64,000 nt of DNA from a virus, in the IMG/VR virus record IMGVR_UViG_3300034198_017033, positions 141,559 through 205,558 of that record, one strand, 5' to 3'. Numbering within the stretch: position 1 is the stretch's first letter; each line of letters opens with the position of its first letter. Below, one piece after another: positions 58,401-63,182 of this stretch. Below the pieces are notes generated by a model. That model was given only the letters and a program-made list of their open reading frames with translations. It did not search any database and was not told the origin of the DNA. Made by a program: the position numbers and the translations under genes.

Positions 58401-59807
58401 ATGGTAATACGTACATATTTCGACAAAAATAATACTATAATCAGTAATACAATAGCAAACACAGGTTTAAATCCTGTTACTGAATTGTTTTATGGTGGTT
58501 ATGATGGTATTGAAAAATATAGCAGATTTTTATTTCATTTTGATGAAACTAATTTAAAACAGTTGTACACTGGTGGTACTTATACTGATTTATCGAAATT
58601 AAAACATACACTTAGACTTACAAACACTGCATCTTTTGATACTGGGTTATTAAACGGTACTATGGCTGCCAAAGATAGAGCTACTTCGTTTGACTTAATA
58701 CTCTTTAAAATAAACCAAGATTGGGATAACGGTGTTGGTTATGATTACGAAGTTCCAATATTAACTAGCGGTGATTATCTGTACTCAACAGGACCATCAA
58801 ACTGGGTTAACCCAAAAACAGGTTTTAATTGGAGTGGCGGTACTGGTGTTTATTCTGGTTCACCTTCTAGTATCACAGTAACAACACAACATTTTGACAA
58901 GGGTAATGAAAATATTGAAATGGACATTACTGATTATGTTAATGGTGTGTTAACTGGTAATACGAACTATGGTTTAGGGATTGCGTTTGCTAGAGGTTAC
59001 GAACTTTTAAACACAACGGCACTTCAATATGTTGGTTTCTTTACTAACAACACGCAAACATTCTACGAACCATATATTGAAACAACTTATGAGAACCACA
59101 TTAAAGACGATAGAAACAACTTTTTCTTAGATAAGAATAACAAACTATATCTTTACGTAAATATTGGCGGAAACCCAACAAATTTAGACCAAATACCTAA
59201 TGTAGATGTATACGATAGTAATGGTAATTTATTTAGCGCTTATACTTCTTCAGATGTTAACCATGTTACGAAGGGTGTGTATAGTATTGATATAATTGTA
59301 CCTACTAATAGTGGAAATGTAGAAACAATGTTTAATGATGTTTGGAAAAATGTTGTAATTAACGGAGTTTCTAGACCAGAATTATCATTAGATTTTGTAG
59401 TTAAATCCTCTTTTGAATATTATAATATAGGAACCAACGATATGTTACCTAAAAAAGTTGCTGTAAATATAAGCGGTGTTAGAAACCAAGAGAACATATT
59501 AAGAGGTGACGTTAGAAGGGTTATTGTTTCTGCTAGAATACCATATACAGTAGAACAAACACAATATATCGATAACTTACAATATAGATTATATGTAAAA
59601 GAAGGTGGTGCTGAATTAACAGTGATTGATTTTCAACCTGTAGAAATGGCCAATAATTATTATTATTTCTTATTGGACACACCTAGTCTTATCCCTAACA
59701 CATATTACTTAGATGTATTAGCAACATCAAATTTAGAAGTAACAACACTTAAAAATGTTTGTCAATTTAATATTGTTAATCAAGTAGAATTAAGAAAAGG
59801 ACAATAA
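58401..59807 (+). CDS. Beta-rich virion protein
   Basis: 468 residues. SRFLFHFDETNLKQLY, KINQDWDNGVGYDY, NIEMDITDYVNGVLTGNTNYGLGIAFARGYE and TFYEPYIETTYENHI follow the pattern of DNRLRE-type (disaggregatase-related) beta-sandwich repeats often found in phage and bacterial surface proteins. The C-terminal half is Ig-like (YLYVNIGGNPTNLDQIPNVDVYDSNG). It may be a baseplate or appendage protein. Stop overlaps the next start (TAATG). Confidence 0.55.
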   Translation: MVIRTYFDKNNTIISNTIANTGLNPVTELFYGGYDGIEKYSRFLFHFDETNLKQLYTGGTYTDLSKLKHTLRLTNTASFDTGLLNGTMAAKDRATSFDLILFKINQDWDNGVGYDYEVPILTSGDYLYSTGPSNWVNPKTGFNWSGGTGVYSGSPSSITVTTQHFDKGNENIEMDITDYVNGVLTGNTNYGLGIAFARGYELLNTTALQYVGFFTNNTQTFYEPYIETTYENHIKDDRNNFFLDKNNKLYLYVNIGGNPTNLDQIPNVDVYDSNGNLFSAYTSSDVNHVTKGVYSIDIIVPTNSGNVETMFNDVWKNVVINGVSRPELSLDFVVKSSFEYYNIGTNDMLPKKVAVNISGVRNQENILRGDVRRVIVSARIPYTVEQTQYIDNLQYRLYVKEGGAELTVIDFQPVEMANNYYYFLLDTPSLIPNTYYLDVLATSNLEVTTLKNVCQFNIVNQVELRKGQ

Positions 59808-60145
59808 TGAAAAAATTTATAAAAAAATTACTAAGAGAGGAACTTATTGATGGTCAAGAAATGAATTCAGCGATGGAATCACTATGTAATAAAATGACTA
59901 TAGGTTCATACACCGAAGCAATTAGATATGTAAAAGCTGCCACAAAAGATATGGATGAAGCGACAAAGACAAAAGTAATGAAAAGAATTTACGCGCCTTT
60001 GAAAAATTTAAAAAACGAACAAATTGAAATTGATGGTGAAATAAAACAATATGGTATGTCTGGGGATTCAATGCCAGATGAAGCTGATACTTATTGGCAC
60101 CAAATCCAATCAACATTATGTGAAATGGGTTCAGATTTTCAATAA
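59807..60145 (+). CDS. Leader-bearing small protein
   Basis: 112 residues. N terminus MKKFIKKLLREELIDG, the same basic amphipathic leader as the proteins at 61253 and 62421. The body is helical (SYTEAIRYVKAATKDMDEATKTKVMKRIYAPLKNLKN) and acidic at the end. No family is recognised. The leader contains L-L-R-E, an (I/L)-x-E site. It is the last gene of the operon before the zinc-ribbon unit. Confidence 0.6.
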   Translation: MKKFIKKLLREELIDGQEMNSAMESLCNKMTIGSYTEAIRYVKAATKDMDEATKTKVMKRIYAPLKNLKNEQIEIDGEIKQYGMSGDSMPDEADTYWHQIQSTLCEMGSDFQ

Positions 60146-60150
60146 AAGTA

Positions 60151-60181
60151 TTGACAAATAAAAAAAAAATTATTATATTTA
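60151..60181 (+). promoter_or_regulatory. Host-type promoter of the zinc-ribbon gene
   Basis: TTG at 60151-60153 (within TTGACA), exactly 20 nt, TATATTTA at 60174-60181. The predicted transcript start is at about 60185, the first base of the 15-bp inverted repeat. Confidence 0.65.
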
Positions 60182-60184
60182 TAT

Positions 60185-60199
60185 TATATACGTTAACTC
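60185..60199 (+). repeat. 15-bp inverted repeat, left arm (predicted mRNA 5' end)
   Basis: TATATACGTTAACTC is the exact reverse complement of 61214-61228 (GAGTTAACGTATATA). It begins where the host-type promoter should start transcription, and contains the palindrome GTTAAC. Confidence 0.75.
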
Positions 60200-60291
60200 A
60201 CGTATTGGTTTCGAGTCTTAATAGGCTTTAGAGTTGTCTAGGCAATAAAGAAATTGGTACAATAATAACAAAAATTAAAAGTTAATTAAAA
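60200..60291 (+). other. Long 5' leader of the zinc-ribbon gene
   Basis: Together with the repeat this gives a leader of about 107 nt, much longer than any other in the window. It is less AT-rich than intergenic DNA here, includes GGTTTCGAGTC and TTTAGAGTTGTCTAGGC, and can form only weak hairpins by eye. No riboswitch or ORF is recognised. Confidence 0.4.
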
Positions 60292-61200
60292 ATGAAACAA
60301 TTAAACTATGTGGCACCAAAAATGCCAACAGCAAACATTGCTGTGAACAAAAGTAGAGTTAAACTTTACAAAAAAGAAGGTGATTTGCCAACTTATTATT
60401 TACAAAAAGGGCAAGAGTTCCAGATTGAACTTTTCAATCCAACTACGGAATCTGTACTTGCTAAAATTACACTTAACGGAAATGTTATCTCACAGGGTGG
60501 TCTTGTATTGAGCCCAGGTCAACGTGTATTCTTAGATAGATACTTAGACGTTGCCAAAAAATTCTTATTCGACACATACGAAGTAGCTAACACTCAAGAA
60601 GTGAAAGAAGCAATAGTAAATAATGGTGATTTCAAGGTTCAATTTTACAGAGAGTCAAAACCTAGACCAAGAAACCCAATATTAAGAATTGGTGGTACTA
60701 GAGATATCTGGGGTGGACAAAACTACGACCAAGGTATTATCCGTTACGATAACACTAACACTGGTGGTTACGTTTATGGTTCAACTACACCAATAACTAA
60801 CACCTTCACAACCACTAACACAATCATTGGAGGTAGTAGTAATTTATCAACTAGCGCGTTTTATAGTTCAAGCGTACATGACGGTTCAGCAACGATGGAT
60901 TGGATGCAAACTGAAAAAAGTGTTGAAACACCTTTAAATCTAACTAAAGGGGTTGCTAAGAAATCTAAATCAATTGAAACTGGTAGAGTTGAAGAAGGTT
61001 CTGATTCTGACCAAAAATTCAAAACAGTAAATAAAGATTTTGAATATTTTGCTTTTTATACTATTGAAGCTAAGTTGCTTCCAGTATCTCAAAAAGTTAA
61101 CACAGTTGAAGATATCAATGTAAAAAGATATTGCACAAACTGTGGTGCCAAATTAGGTAAAGGACACAAGTTCTGTGCTAGTTGCGGTACAAAAGCATAA
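60292..61200 (+). CDS. Zinc-ribbon protein expressed from its own unit
   Basis: 302 residues. Residues 1-120 are beta-rich (KLYKKEGDLPTYYLQKGQEFQIELFNPTTESVLAKI, VLSPGQRVFLDRYLD), then a low-complexity S/T/N-rich middle (GGYVYGSTTPITNTF) and a C-terminal CxxC-x(12)-CxxC zinc ribbon: YCTNCGAKLGKGHKFCASCG. Codon use is noticeably less AT-biased than in most genes here, as in capsid and tube genes, suggesting abundant expression. Own host-type promoter, 107-nt leader, complementary mRNA ends and terminator. It may be a virion or abundant nucleic-acid-binding protein; the family is not recognised. Confidence 0.7.
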   Translation: MKQLNYVAPKMPTANIAVNKSRVKLYKKEGDLPTYYLQKGQEFQIELFNPTTESVLAKITLNGNVISQGGLVLSPGQRVFLDRYLDVAKKFLFDTYEVANTQEVKEAIVNNGDFKVQFYRESKPRPRNPILRIGGTRDIWGGQNYDQGIIRYDNTNTGGYVYGSTTPITNTFTTTNTIIGGSSNLSTSAFYSSSVHDGSATMDWMQTEKSVETPLNLTKGVAKKSKSIETGRVEEGSDSDQKFKTVNKDFEYFAFYTIEAKLLPVSQKVNTVEDINVKRYCTNCGAKLGKGHKFCASCGTKA

Positions 61201-61213
61201 TAAATAATTAATC

Positions 61214-61228
61214 GAGTTAACGTATATA
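61214..61228 (+). repeat. 15-bp inverted repeat, right arm (mRNA 3' region)
   Basis: GAGTTAACGTATATA pairs perfectly with 60185-60199 and lies 2 nt before the terminator hairpin. In the transcript it could close the molecule as a panhandle. Confidence 0.75.
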
Positions 61229-61230
61229 TA

Positions 61231-61254
61231 AAAAGGGCCATATGGCCCTTTTTT
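61231..61254. terminator. Bidirectional rho-independent terminator
   Basis: AAAAGGGCCATATGGCCCTTTTTT: a palindromic GGGCCATATGGCCC stem with A and T tracts, between convergent genes. Its last bases overlap the stop of the gene at 61253 (minus). Confidence 0.85.
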
Positions 61255-61774
61255 ATTGTATTAATTTTGATTTTTTAAGCATATTAGGTGCCCATATACA
61301 ACCAGAAGCTACATCCCACGTATAATACCAAAGCATTTCATATCTAGCTTCATAAATATATGGTACTATTTCTATACCACCATATTTTTCACTAACTCTT
61401 TTCCAATCAACATAATAATTATCAATAACATATTCTTCATTAAATAATTTTAAATCTTCATAAGTATTAATTTTTAATAATCTACTATCATCAATATCCA
61501 AAAGAAATGCGTGGTCACGTTCCCATTGTGGCATTTCCATTCTTACCCAATCAATCCATTCAGTACCTATAGAATACCATAATCCAAAAGGTTTAGCCAT
61601 AGGTTTATCAGGTTGTTGTTTAGGTTTATATATTATCTTATCACCATCAACAGAACCTCTAGCTTCCATCATAATTCTAGCATTAGGGTATTGGGTTCTA
61701 ATTATTTCATAAATATCATCACTAACCTCGCTTAAAAGATTTTCTCGAAGTAATTGTTTAATCAAATTTTTCAT
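61253..61774 (-). CDS. Leader-bearing protein with ART-like pattern
   Basis: 173 residues. Leader MKNLIKQLLRENLLSE, then KPFGLWYSIGTEWIDWV, WERDHAFLLDIDDSRLLKI, EKYGGIEIVPYI and WYYTWDVASGCIW. This set (KPxGLWyS ... idW ... YxGIEI ... WDvaSGCIW) recurs in phage proteins and looks like a compact ADP-ribosyltransferase-type or related NAD-site fold, with E in GIEI as a possible catalytic residue; I am not certain. With the leader it would be a second packaged effector. It is translated right after the nuclease (0-nt gap) in a three-gene operon. Confidence 0.5.
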   Translation of the reverse strand: MKNLIKQLLRENLLSEVSDDIYEIIRTQYPNARIMMEARGSVDGDKIIYKPKQQPDKPMAKPFGLWYSIGTEWIDWVRMEMPQWERDHAFLLDIDDSRLLKINTYEDLKLFNEEYVIDNYYVDWKRVSEKYGGIEIVPYIYEARYEMLWYYTWDVASGCIWAPNMLKKSKLIQ

Positions 61775-62420: not shown

Positions 62421-63182
62421 TTAACCAAATACTACATCACCCATAACGCATAATTGTAAAAATATATCAGCATCGTTTGCATCGTATTGCTCATCAAGTA
62501 TATTTTCCCAAACATCTGGGTAATCTCTTTTTATTATTGTTATTGCTTCTAGAATTGAATCCATATCTACTGTACCCAACAATCCATTATCTGAATGTGT
62601 TTCAGTATAATCATCTTCGTCATATTCTTCTTCAGCATCATAAAATTGAACATAACCACCTTTAAGAATATACTCACCTATAGCTTCAGATACTGATTGA
62701 CCCATTTCCTTGGCTTTATAGCGAACTTCGTTAGGTAAATGACGTATCTCATACCAATAGTTAGAACCTCCTTCTAAAGCGTCTACAAATAGGTTTATAA
62801 TGTCTTCTTTACCAAAGGTTCTAGACTCTCTAGCTTTAACTATATCATCTTCATATCTTTTCCATGATAAATAATTTCTAGCTATTTCATGATACACAGC
62901 TTTTCTATCTCTATTTTTAGCAGCATTAATTGTATTTTGTAATGCACTAATTTGGTCTTTAAAAGCTTTTGGAATCCATTCTTGGTTGGCAAATTTTGGG
63001 TCGCTTATTACCTTATTGTAATGGTCAAGTTGTTTTTTAGCTTTAACAGCGCTTTCAGTATCAGATAAAACAAACTCTTTATATCTTCTATCGATTTCTT
63101 TGCGTTCCTCTGGTGTTATGTTTGTAAAACCAGCGATGTCTTCTAAACTTTCTCTAATTAACTTTTTTATTAATTTTTTCAT
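62421..63182 (-). CDS. Leader-bearing helical/acidic protein
   Basis: 253 residues from the ATG at 63180-63182; the longer frame up to 63311 lacks support because the promoter region and small plus-strand gene lie there. The leader MKKLIKKLIRESLEDI matches those at 59807 and 61253. The body is helical (EIDRRYKEFVLSDTESAVKAKKQLDHYNKVI), then FVDALEGGSNYWYEIRHLP and ILKGGYVQFYDAEEEYDEDDY, blocks known in uncharacterised phage proteins. It heads the three-gene operon; the late-type motif at 63184-63197 precedes it. Function unknown. Confidence 0.6.
   Translation of the reverse strand: MKKLIKKLIRESLEDIAGFTNITPEERKEIDRRYKEFVLSDTESAVKAKKQLDHYNKVISDPKFANQEWIPKAFKDQISALQNTINAAKNRDRKAVYHEIARNYLSWKRYEDDIVKARESRTFGKEDIINLFVDALEGGSNYWYEIRHLPNEVRYKAKEMGQSVSEAIGEYILKGGYVQFYDAEEEYDEDDYTETHSDNGLLGTVDMDSILEAITIIKRDYPDVWENILDEQYDANDADIFLQLCVMGDVVFG

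Follow-up and report, generated by a model that had tools for sequence, protein, structure and literature searches.

The predicted mRNA of a zinc-ribbon gene begins with a segment that is exactly complementary to a second segment just before its terminator, and the two would join the ends of the message in a panhandle. The window used throughout is the whole 64,000-nt stretch that we analysed, positions 141,559-205,558 of the record IMGVR_UViG_3300034198_017033, a 205,558-bp virus fragment. From the comparison of the window with its relatives, both the arm pairing and a three-way-junction RNA, the latter absent from the preliminary description of the locus, are shown to be selected at the RNA level; on the same comparative grounds, the paired mRNA ends are very probably a real device. 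The preliminary description had proposed a panhandle transcript with a lengthened life. The end pairing stands, on the covariation of the arms, their placement relative to promoter and terminator and their persistence through insertions, and the longer mRNA life is retained as plausible.

Features of the locus are as follows.

60151..60181, + strand: Bacteroidota-type promoter, with the -33 side TTGACA at 60151-60156 and the -7 box TATATTTA at 60174-60181
60185..60199, + strand: left (5') arm TATATACGTTAACTC, exact complement of 61214-61228, beginning at the predicted transcription start
60202..60260, + strand: three-way-junction RNA, with helices P1 (60202-60212/60250-60260), P2 (60213-60218/60223-60228) and P3 (60233-60237/60242-60246)
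60277..60285, + strand: conserved pre-AUG segment AAAAGTTAA, from the alignment; local pairing with the left arm possible
60292..61200, + strand: gene of a 302-aa protein with a beta-rich domain, a disordered middle, a second beta segment and a C-terminal zinc ribbon
61214..61228, + strand: right (3') arm GAGTTAACGTATATA, all 15 bp paired in the full-length fold
61230..61254, + strand: intrinsic terminator hairpin AAAAAGGGCC-ATAT-GGCCCTTTTTT, palindromic, from sequence and fold

Arms, promoter and terminator of the zinc-ribbon gene

The arms TATATACGTTAACTC and GAGTTAACGTATATA are 15-nt exact reverse complements lying 1014 nt apart in the window sequence, in agreement with the preliminary description in both coordinates and sequences. 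All 15 of the 15 arm pairs form in the minimum-energy as well as the centroid structure of the full-length fold. No further match to the arms was found elsewhere in the window with up to 2 mismatches allowed, and none of the other terminators among the 10 checked in the window has a comparable promoter-proximal partner. No other distant perfect inverted repeat in the 64-kb window is as long as the arm pair. In order-2 Markov simulations, however, a distant repeat of this kind turns up about once per 64 kb (at least 15 bp in 14 of 20 simulations), so the 15-bp length by itself is not significant in this AT-rich window and we do not use it as evidence; the case rests on position and conservation.

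The -7 box of Flavobacterium spans -12 to -5 (PMC9723704). Because this convention places the predicted +1 at 60186, the left arm is the predicted beginning of the mRNA, with 14-15 of the 15 arm base pairs within the RNA, and the earlier claim that the arm begins at the promoter-predicted start is borne out. Among the relatives, the -33/-7 spacer is 19-20 nt in 46 of 50, and the first paired base lies 11-12 nt past the start of the -7 box, which is -1/+1 of the predicted start, in 37 of 50. On the predicted start site, the 5' terminal nucleotide is in or adjoining the helix, as in a 5'-terminal protective duplex. The left arm occupies -107 to -93 relative to the AUG. At the other end of the transcript, the G+C core of the terminator begins at 61235, 6 nt past the right arm; when the A-T extension is counted the hairpin begins at ~61230, and the right arm then stops 2 nt short of it, as had been described. 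In the relatives the gap between right arm and terminator is 4-14 nt, although the terminator hairpins differ in sequence. In the window the hairpin is probably common to the convergent gene too.

The zinc-ribbon gene stands alone: on one side is a baseplate-like operon on the same strand (assigned by eye, with no family match), and on the other, convergent genes extend towards a T4 gp23-like major capsid gene. The codon bias described earlier is confirmed: the gene has a C-ending codon use of 0.53, at the top of the 53 window ORFs, second only to the partial capsid gene with 0.74. This codon bias supports, and does not prove, strong late expression of the gene. The zinc ribbon of the protein scores above the cut-off of Pfam PF13240, and the domain layout was taken from an AlphaFold model. 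Homologues are present in 78 viral loci and in Lak phages and other 460-640 kb phages. The homologues of L115 and L116 (634-642 kb phages) end in a SHOCT-like helix pair, not a zinc ribbon; both loci keep the arms and L116 keeps the junction fold too.

The predicted fold of the 302-aa protein has no significant match in the PDB (best E 0.08), and a PDB sequence search was likewise negative. The fold matches uncharacterised proteins of many large eukaryotic DNA viruses, the Marseillevirus LCMAC101 with E 7.6e-12 among them, with further matches in a pithovirus, mimivirus relatives, an iridovirus, nudiviruses and a nimavirus wsv390-like protein, and it also matches a marine phage SHOCT protein (6e-23). 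A protein family common to huge phages and giant viruses is possible on the basis of this model. Near the gene, otherwise different proteins encoded at 59807-60145 (+), 61253-61774 (-) and 62421-63182 (-) have the common N-terminal MKxLIKxLLREsL, also found in neighbours of the gene at L037 and L036; near a capsid gene, the motif could be a capsid- or export-targeting leader. With regard to the bS21-phage idea (PMC9723584), no bS21 was found in five records.

Compensatory changes and inserted genes in relatives

The sample consisted of 78 viral loci with the zinc-ribbon gene, plus homologues from 460-640 kb phages and from Lak phages, and the arm comparison rests on ~55 non-redundant viral relatives. 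Both arms are present in the flanks of virtually all complete loci, forming helices of 7-16 bp (median 11.5) that close a loop of ~0.85-1.1 kb when there is no insertion. The arm sequences diverge widely among relatives and every left arm complements its own right arm. Left-arm types include TATATACGTTAACTC, TAACGTTAACTC, TGTGTTAACTC, TTGCGTTAACTA, TACATTAGCTCAAGT, AACGTGATTGAACTAG, ATCGTGATTGAT, AGACCTTGTGGTTGA and ATGGTTAACA, with TTTATAGCTGTTCG in a 642-kb phage, and unrelated arms with perfect or near-perfect pairing are found in L067 (AACGUGAUUGAACUAG), L073 (AGACCUUGUGGUUGA) and the 642-kb phage L116 (UUUAUAGCUGUUCG / CGAACAGCUAUAAA).

Inside the arm helices, 668 cells are Watson-Crick and 11 are G-U. 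In a sequence-only alignment 81% of arm cells are paired compared to 67% in shuffled data, and a second count gave 83.8% compared to 68.7%, with none of 500 shuffles reaching 83.8%; the arm segments were excised around found helices, which somewhat favours pairing in these figures. Two controls are a partial answer to this: native arm pairs have an average helix score of 27.2 compared to 17.4 with exchanged partners, and pairing falls to 24-48% when the partner is slid by 1-3 columns. The arm covariation score is 0.213 compared to 0.079 in shuffled data, these covariation figures being counts, distinct from a formal R-scape test. An independent count found alignment columns with TA/AT/GC and AT/GC/TA swaps. 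On the protein tree, some branches of which are weak, the four inner positions (8-11) require a minimum of 22 Watson-Crick pair-state changes. Full-length folds have the panhandle in 18 of 19 homologues. The check originally proposed for this locus, covariation of the arms in relatives, thus gave compensatory changes in both arms and points to RNA pairing; complementary UTR segments at the predicted transcript ends and compensatory changes are both present, as in other cases of 5'-3' UTR pairing in cis.

Several relatives contain additional genes. The stop codon and the right arm are separated by a gene on the opposite strand, a LAGLIDADG endonuclease gene in L021, L023 and L036 and a GIY-YIG gene in L037; the right arm is displaced by 870-1140 nt, is still complementary and still lies ahead of the terminator. 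L008 and L022 have a GIY-YIG gene inserted between the left arm with its junction and the zinc-ribbon gene. The transcript of L066 also continues through a von Willebrand-type (vWA) gene, assigned by eye, and its right arm GCTAATCACG precedes the terminator of the longer unit, ~2.7 kb from the left arm. Because the arms stay at the ends despite inserted genes, they track the transcript ends and not the gene.

The exceptions are of two kinds. L059 and L060 have only the left arm left, the zinc-ribbon end or 3' part of the gene having been lost together with the right arm. No arms were recognisable in L110 (636-kb phage) and the Lak phages, which keep the gene; the junction is kept without arms in L110 and, by single-sequence fold only, in Lak phages. 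Because of these armless and one-armed loci, we consider the arms dispensable in some lineages.

The zinc-ribbon gene, UTRs included, is a hotspot for homing endonuclease genes of the LAGLIDADG and GIY-YIG types (L021, L023, L036, L037, L008, L022, L066). L021 and L036 come from divergent host phages, yet their LAGLIDADG proteins look near-identical, which suggests recent transfer. At L050:3001-4967, a zinc-ribbon homologue is interrupted by ~1.1 kb of sequence rich in in-frame stops, probably a mobile insertion or an intron.

Three-way-junction RNA in the 5' UTR

The junction sits between the left arm and the start codon. RNAalifold gave 20 pairs in three helices, 15 of them with double changes; in the junction alignment A2, 99.1% of cells are paired, with both-side changes in 16 of the 20 pairs. 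The covariation score is 0.467 compared to 0.235 in shuffled data and at most 0.147 in slid data. The unpaired letters UUUAGAG and AAAG are strictly conserved. The single-sequence fold of the window junction has a z value of -2.31, and the covariance model R1 matches 60202-60264 at 79.7 bits.

A covariance-model search of 18 records gave one strong match at the zinc-ribbon gene in 17 of them and none in the record of L073. The only extra match, a weak one and the only one away from the zinc-ribbon gene with E <0.01, is G003:C1:268833-268886 in a 362-kb phage record (L097), at 28.3 bits and E 0.0013. The model also matches L110 and L113 (460-636 kb phages) and, more weakly, L112. Single sequences of the 642-kb phage L116 and of one Lak phage fold like the junction, the Lak fold (z -0.02) being no better than shuffles. 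In L008 (2866-2933) and L022 (2877-2944), the zinc-ribbon gene is immediately preceded by a second, divergent copy of the junction, placed after the GIY-YIG insert. A search of the window and loci against Rfam 15 gave no family above the gathering cut-off, with chance-level scores only (E up to 5). The role of the junction would probably be in translation initiation or in locking the 5' end.

Function of the paired mRNA ends

We consider it rather likely that the main function of the panhandle is to protect the mRNA from decay. The first 10-16 nt of the message would pair with the segment directly before the terminator and bring the 5' end, the 3' end and the hairpin together in a panhandle, with the three-way junction directly behind the left arm forming the 5' UTR. 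A paired 5' end near the terminator may block an RppH-type pyrophosphohydrolase, RNase E/G or a 5' exonuclease, and no free 3' tail would be left, giving a long-lived mRNA for a late, abundant protein. Only full-length transcripts would be protected, because there is no right arm until transcription gets to the terminator. RNase E cuts RNAs whose 5' end is paired or circular >10-fold more slowly than RNAs whose 5' monophosphate is accessible, and at least 2 unpaired 5' nucleotides are required by BsRppH of B. subtilis (PMC3997798). The Bacteroides control genome encodes RNase E/G. Counting against protection, ribosomes translating the gene pass between the arms; moreover, RNase III could be drawn to a duplex of 10-16 bp, as happens in icaR. 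Chances are about even that the 5' junction and the end pairing together make a functionally closed-loop mRNA, in which only finished transcripts would be protected and perhaps re-translated.

Translational control is possible, at appreciably lower probability than protection. The panhandle and the junction would then act mainly on ribosome loading or recycling, with stability secondary, either by closed-loop reinitiation or as a gate that passes only finished transcripts. The position of the junction between left arm and start codon is consistent with this, as is the fact that it is kept more widely than the arms (in L110 and L113 and, by fold, in Lak phages and L116), and the second junction before the gene in L008 and L022 looks as if each reading frame needs one. 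The pre-AUG AAAAGUUAA is able to pair with the left arm, the pairing being thermodynamically possible. However, this helix scores 12.8 for native and 12.3 for exchanged partners, and it is lost in GUGAUUGA lineages; a start-codon switch by this pairing, without covariation, was rejected. The right arm leaves the start-codon region uncovered, which also argues against control of translation.

A protein-binding RNA is unlikely. In this reading the zinc-ribbon protein or another phage protein would bind the junction, the panhandle or both for autoregulation, in keeping with the C-terminal zinc ribbon of the gene product, the strict conservation of the unpaired UUUAGAG and AAAG and the occurrence of one junction per genome, at the zinc-ribbon gene. 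However, the junction fold is also found beside the homologues with SHOCT ends (L115/L116), and the arm sequences vary freely provided that pairing holds.

Function at the DNA level, with the arms as looping sites for a repressor or activator or as inverted repeats of an invertible segment, is very improbable. In the window alone the arms share a palindromic GTTAAC core and flank one gene, and the preliminary description had offered sites for a DNA-binding protein with this palindrome as its alternative. That alternative is not supported by the relatives: the core is dispensable, entire lineages carrying GTGATTGA or GCTGTTCG in its place with complementarity retained. Also against the DNA level are the 11 G-U cells within the helix, the exact register with the predicted RNA start and the terminator, and the covarying RNA structure that adjoins the left arm. 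As for DNA inversion, no inverted locus was found, the orientation of the gene relative to its two neighbours being constant in 70 of 70 and 65 of 65 loci. Chance complementarity, which one expected perfect 15-bp distant repeat per ~64 kb would allow and the simulations by themselves cannot exclude, is excluded for practical purposes by the ~55 relatives in which different sequences pair at the same two places, and none of the other terminators among the 10 in the window has such a partner.

Comparison with known systems and significance

The panhandle is closest in anatomy to the hbs mRNA of Bacillus subtilis, in which, according to the account of Braun, Durand and Condon (2017) given in PMC7821165, a 14-nt pairing of 5' and 3' UTR is reported to be protective against RNase Y cleavage in the 5' UTR. 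The two have 5'-3' UTR pairing within one mRNA in common. As far as that account goes, the phage system differs in that its pairing begins with the first nucleotides and reaches close to the terminator, and that it has an adjoining three-way junction and covariation in ~55 Bacteroidota phages; the likeness is one of anatomy, and protection in the phage system would be a prediction. In Staphylococcus aureus icaR, the 3' UTR also pairs with the 5' UTR of its own mRNA, at the Shine-Dalgarno region, blocking translation and feeding RNase III (PMC3868564), whereas the paired part of the phage message lies ~90 nt ahead of the AUG, leaving the initiation region uncovered, so that pairing of the icaR type was not found. 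S. aureus RNAIII, a regulatory RNA, has a long-range pairing of both UTRs (A24-G30 with 452-458; PMC7821165) but it is short, not terminal and non-phage. The ompA, papA and aprE leaders, cited in PMC3997798 for 5'-terminal stem-loops that slow 5'-end-dependent decay, likewise have base pairing at the mRNA 5' end; as cited there, they are local hairpins, whereas the phage partner is found at the 3' end, ~1 kb and at most 2.7 kb further down.

In the limited library of literature searched, no report of a panhandle mRNA in phages was found. Bacterial 5'-3' UTR pairing so far consists of a few single cases, and a 2021 review treats its application to other genes as open (PMC7821165). Covariation in some 55 phage lineages shows long-term selection for joining the mRNA ends, and the inserted genes and the one-armed and armless relatives are natural experiments in a compact, testable case of closed-loop mRNA protection. 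The elements may be possible parts for mRNA stabilisation, and the RNA could be a conserved marker for huge phages of Bacteroidota. If true, the finding would mean that a closed-loop mRNA has been maintained phylogenetically in prokaryotic systems, in phages of ~300 kb to 642 kb and through homing-endonuclease insertions.
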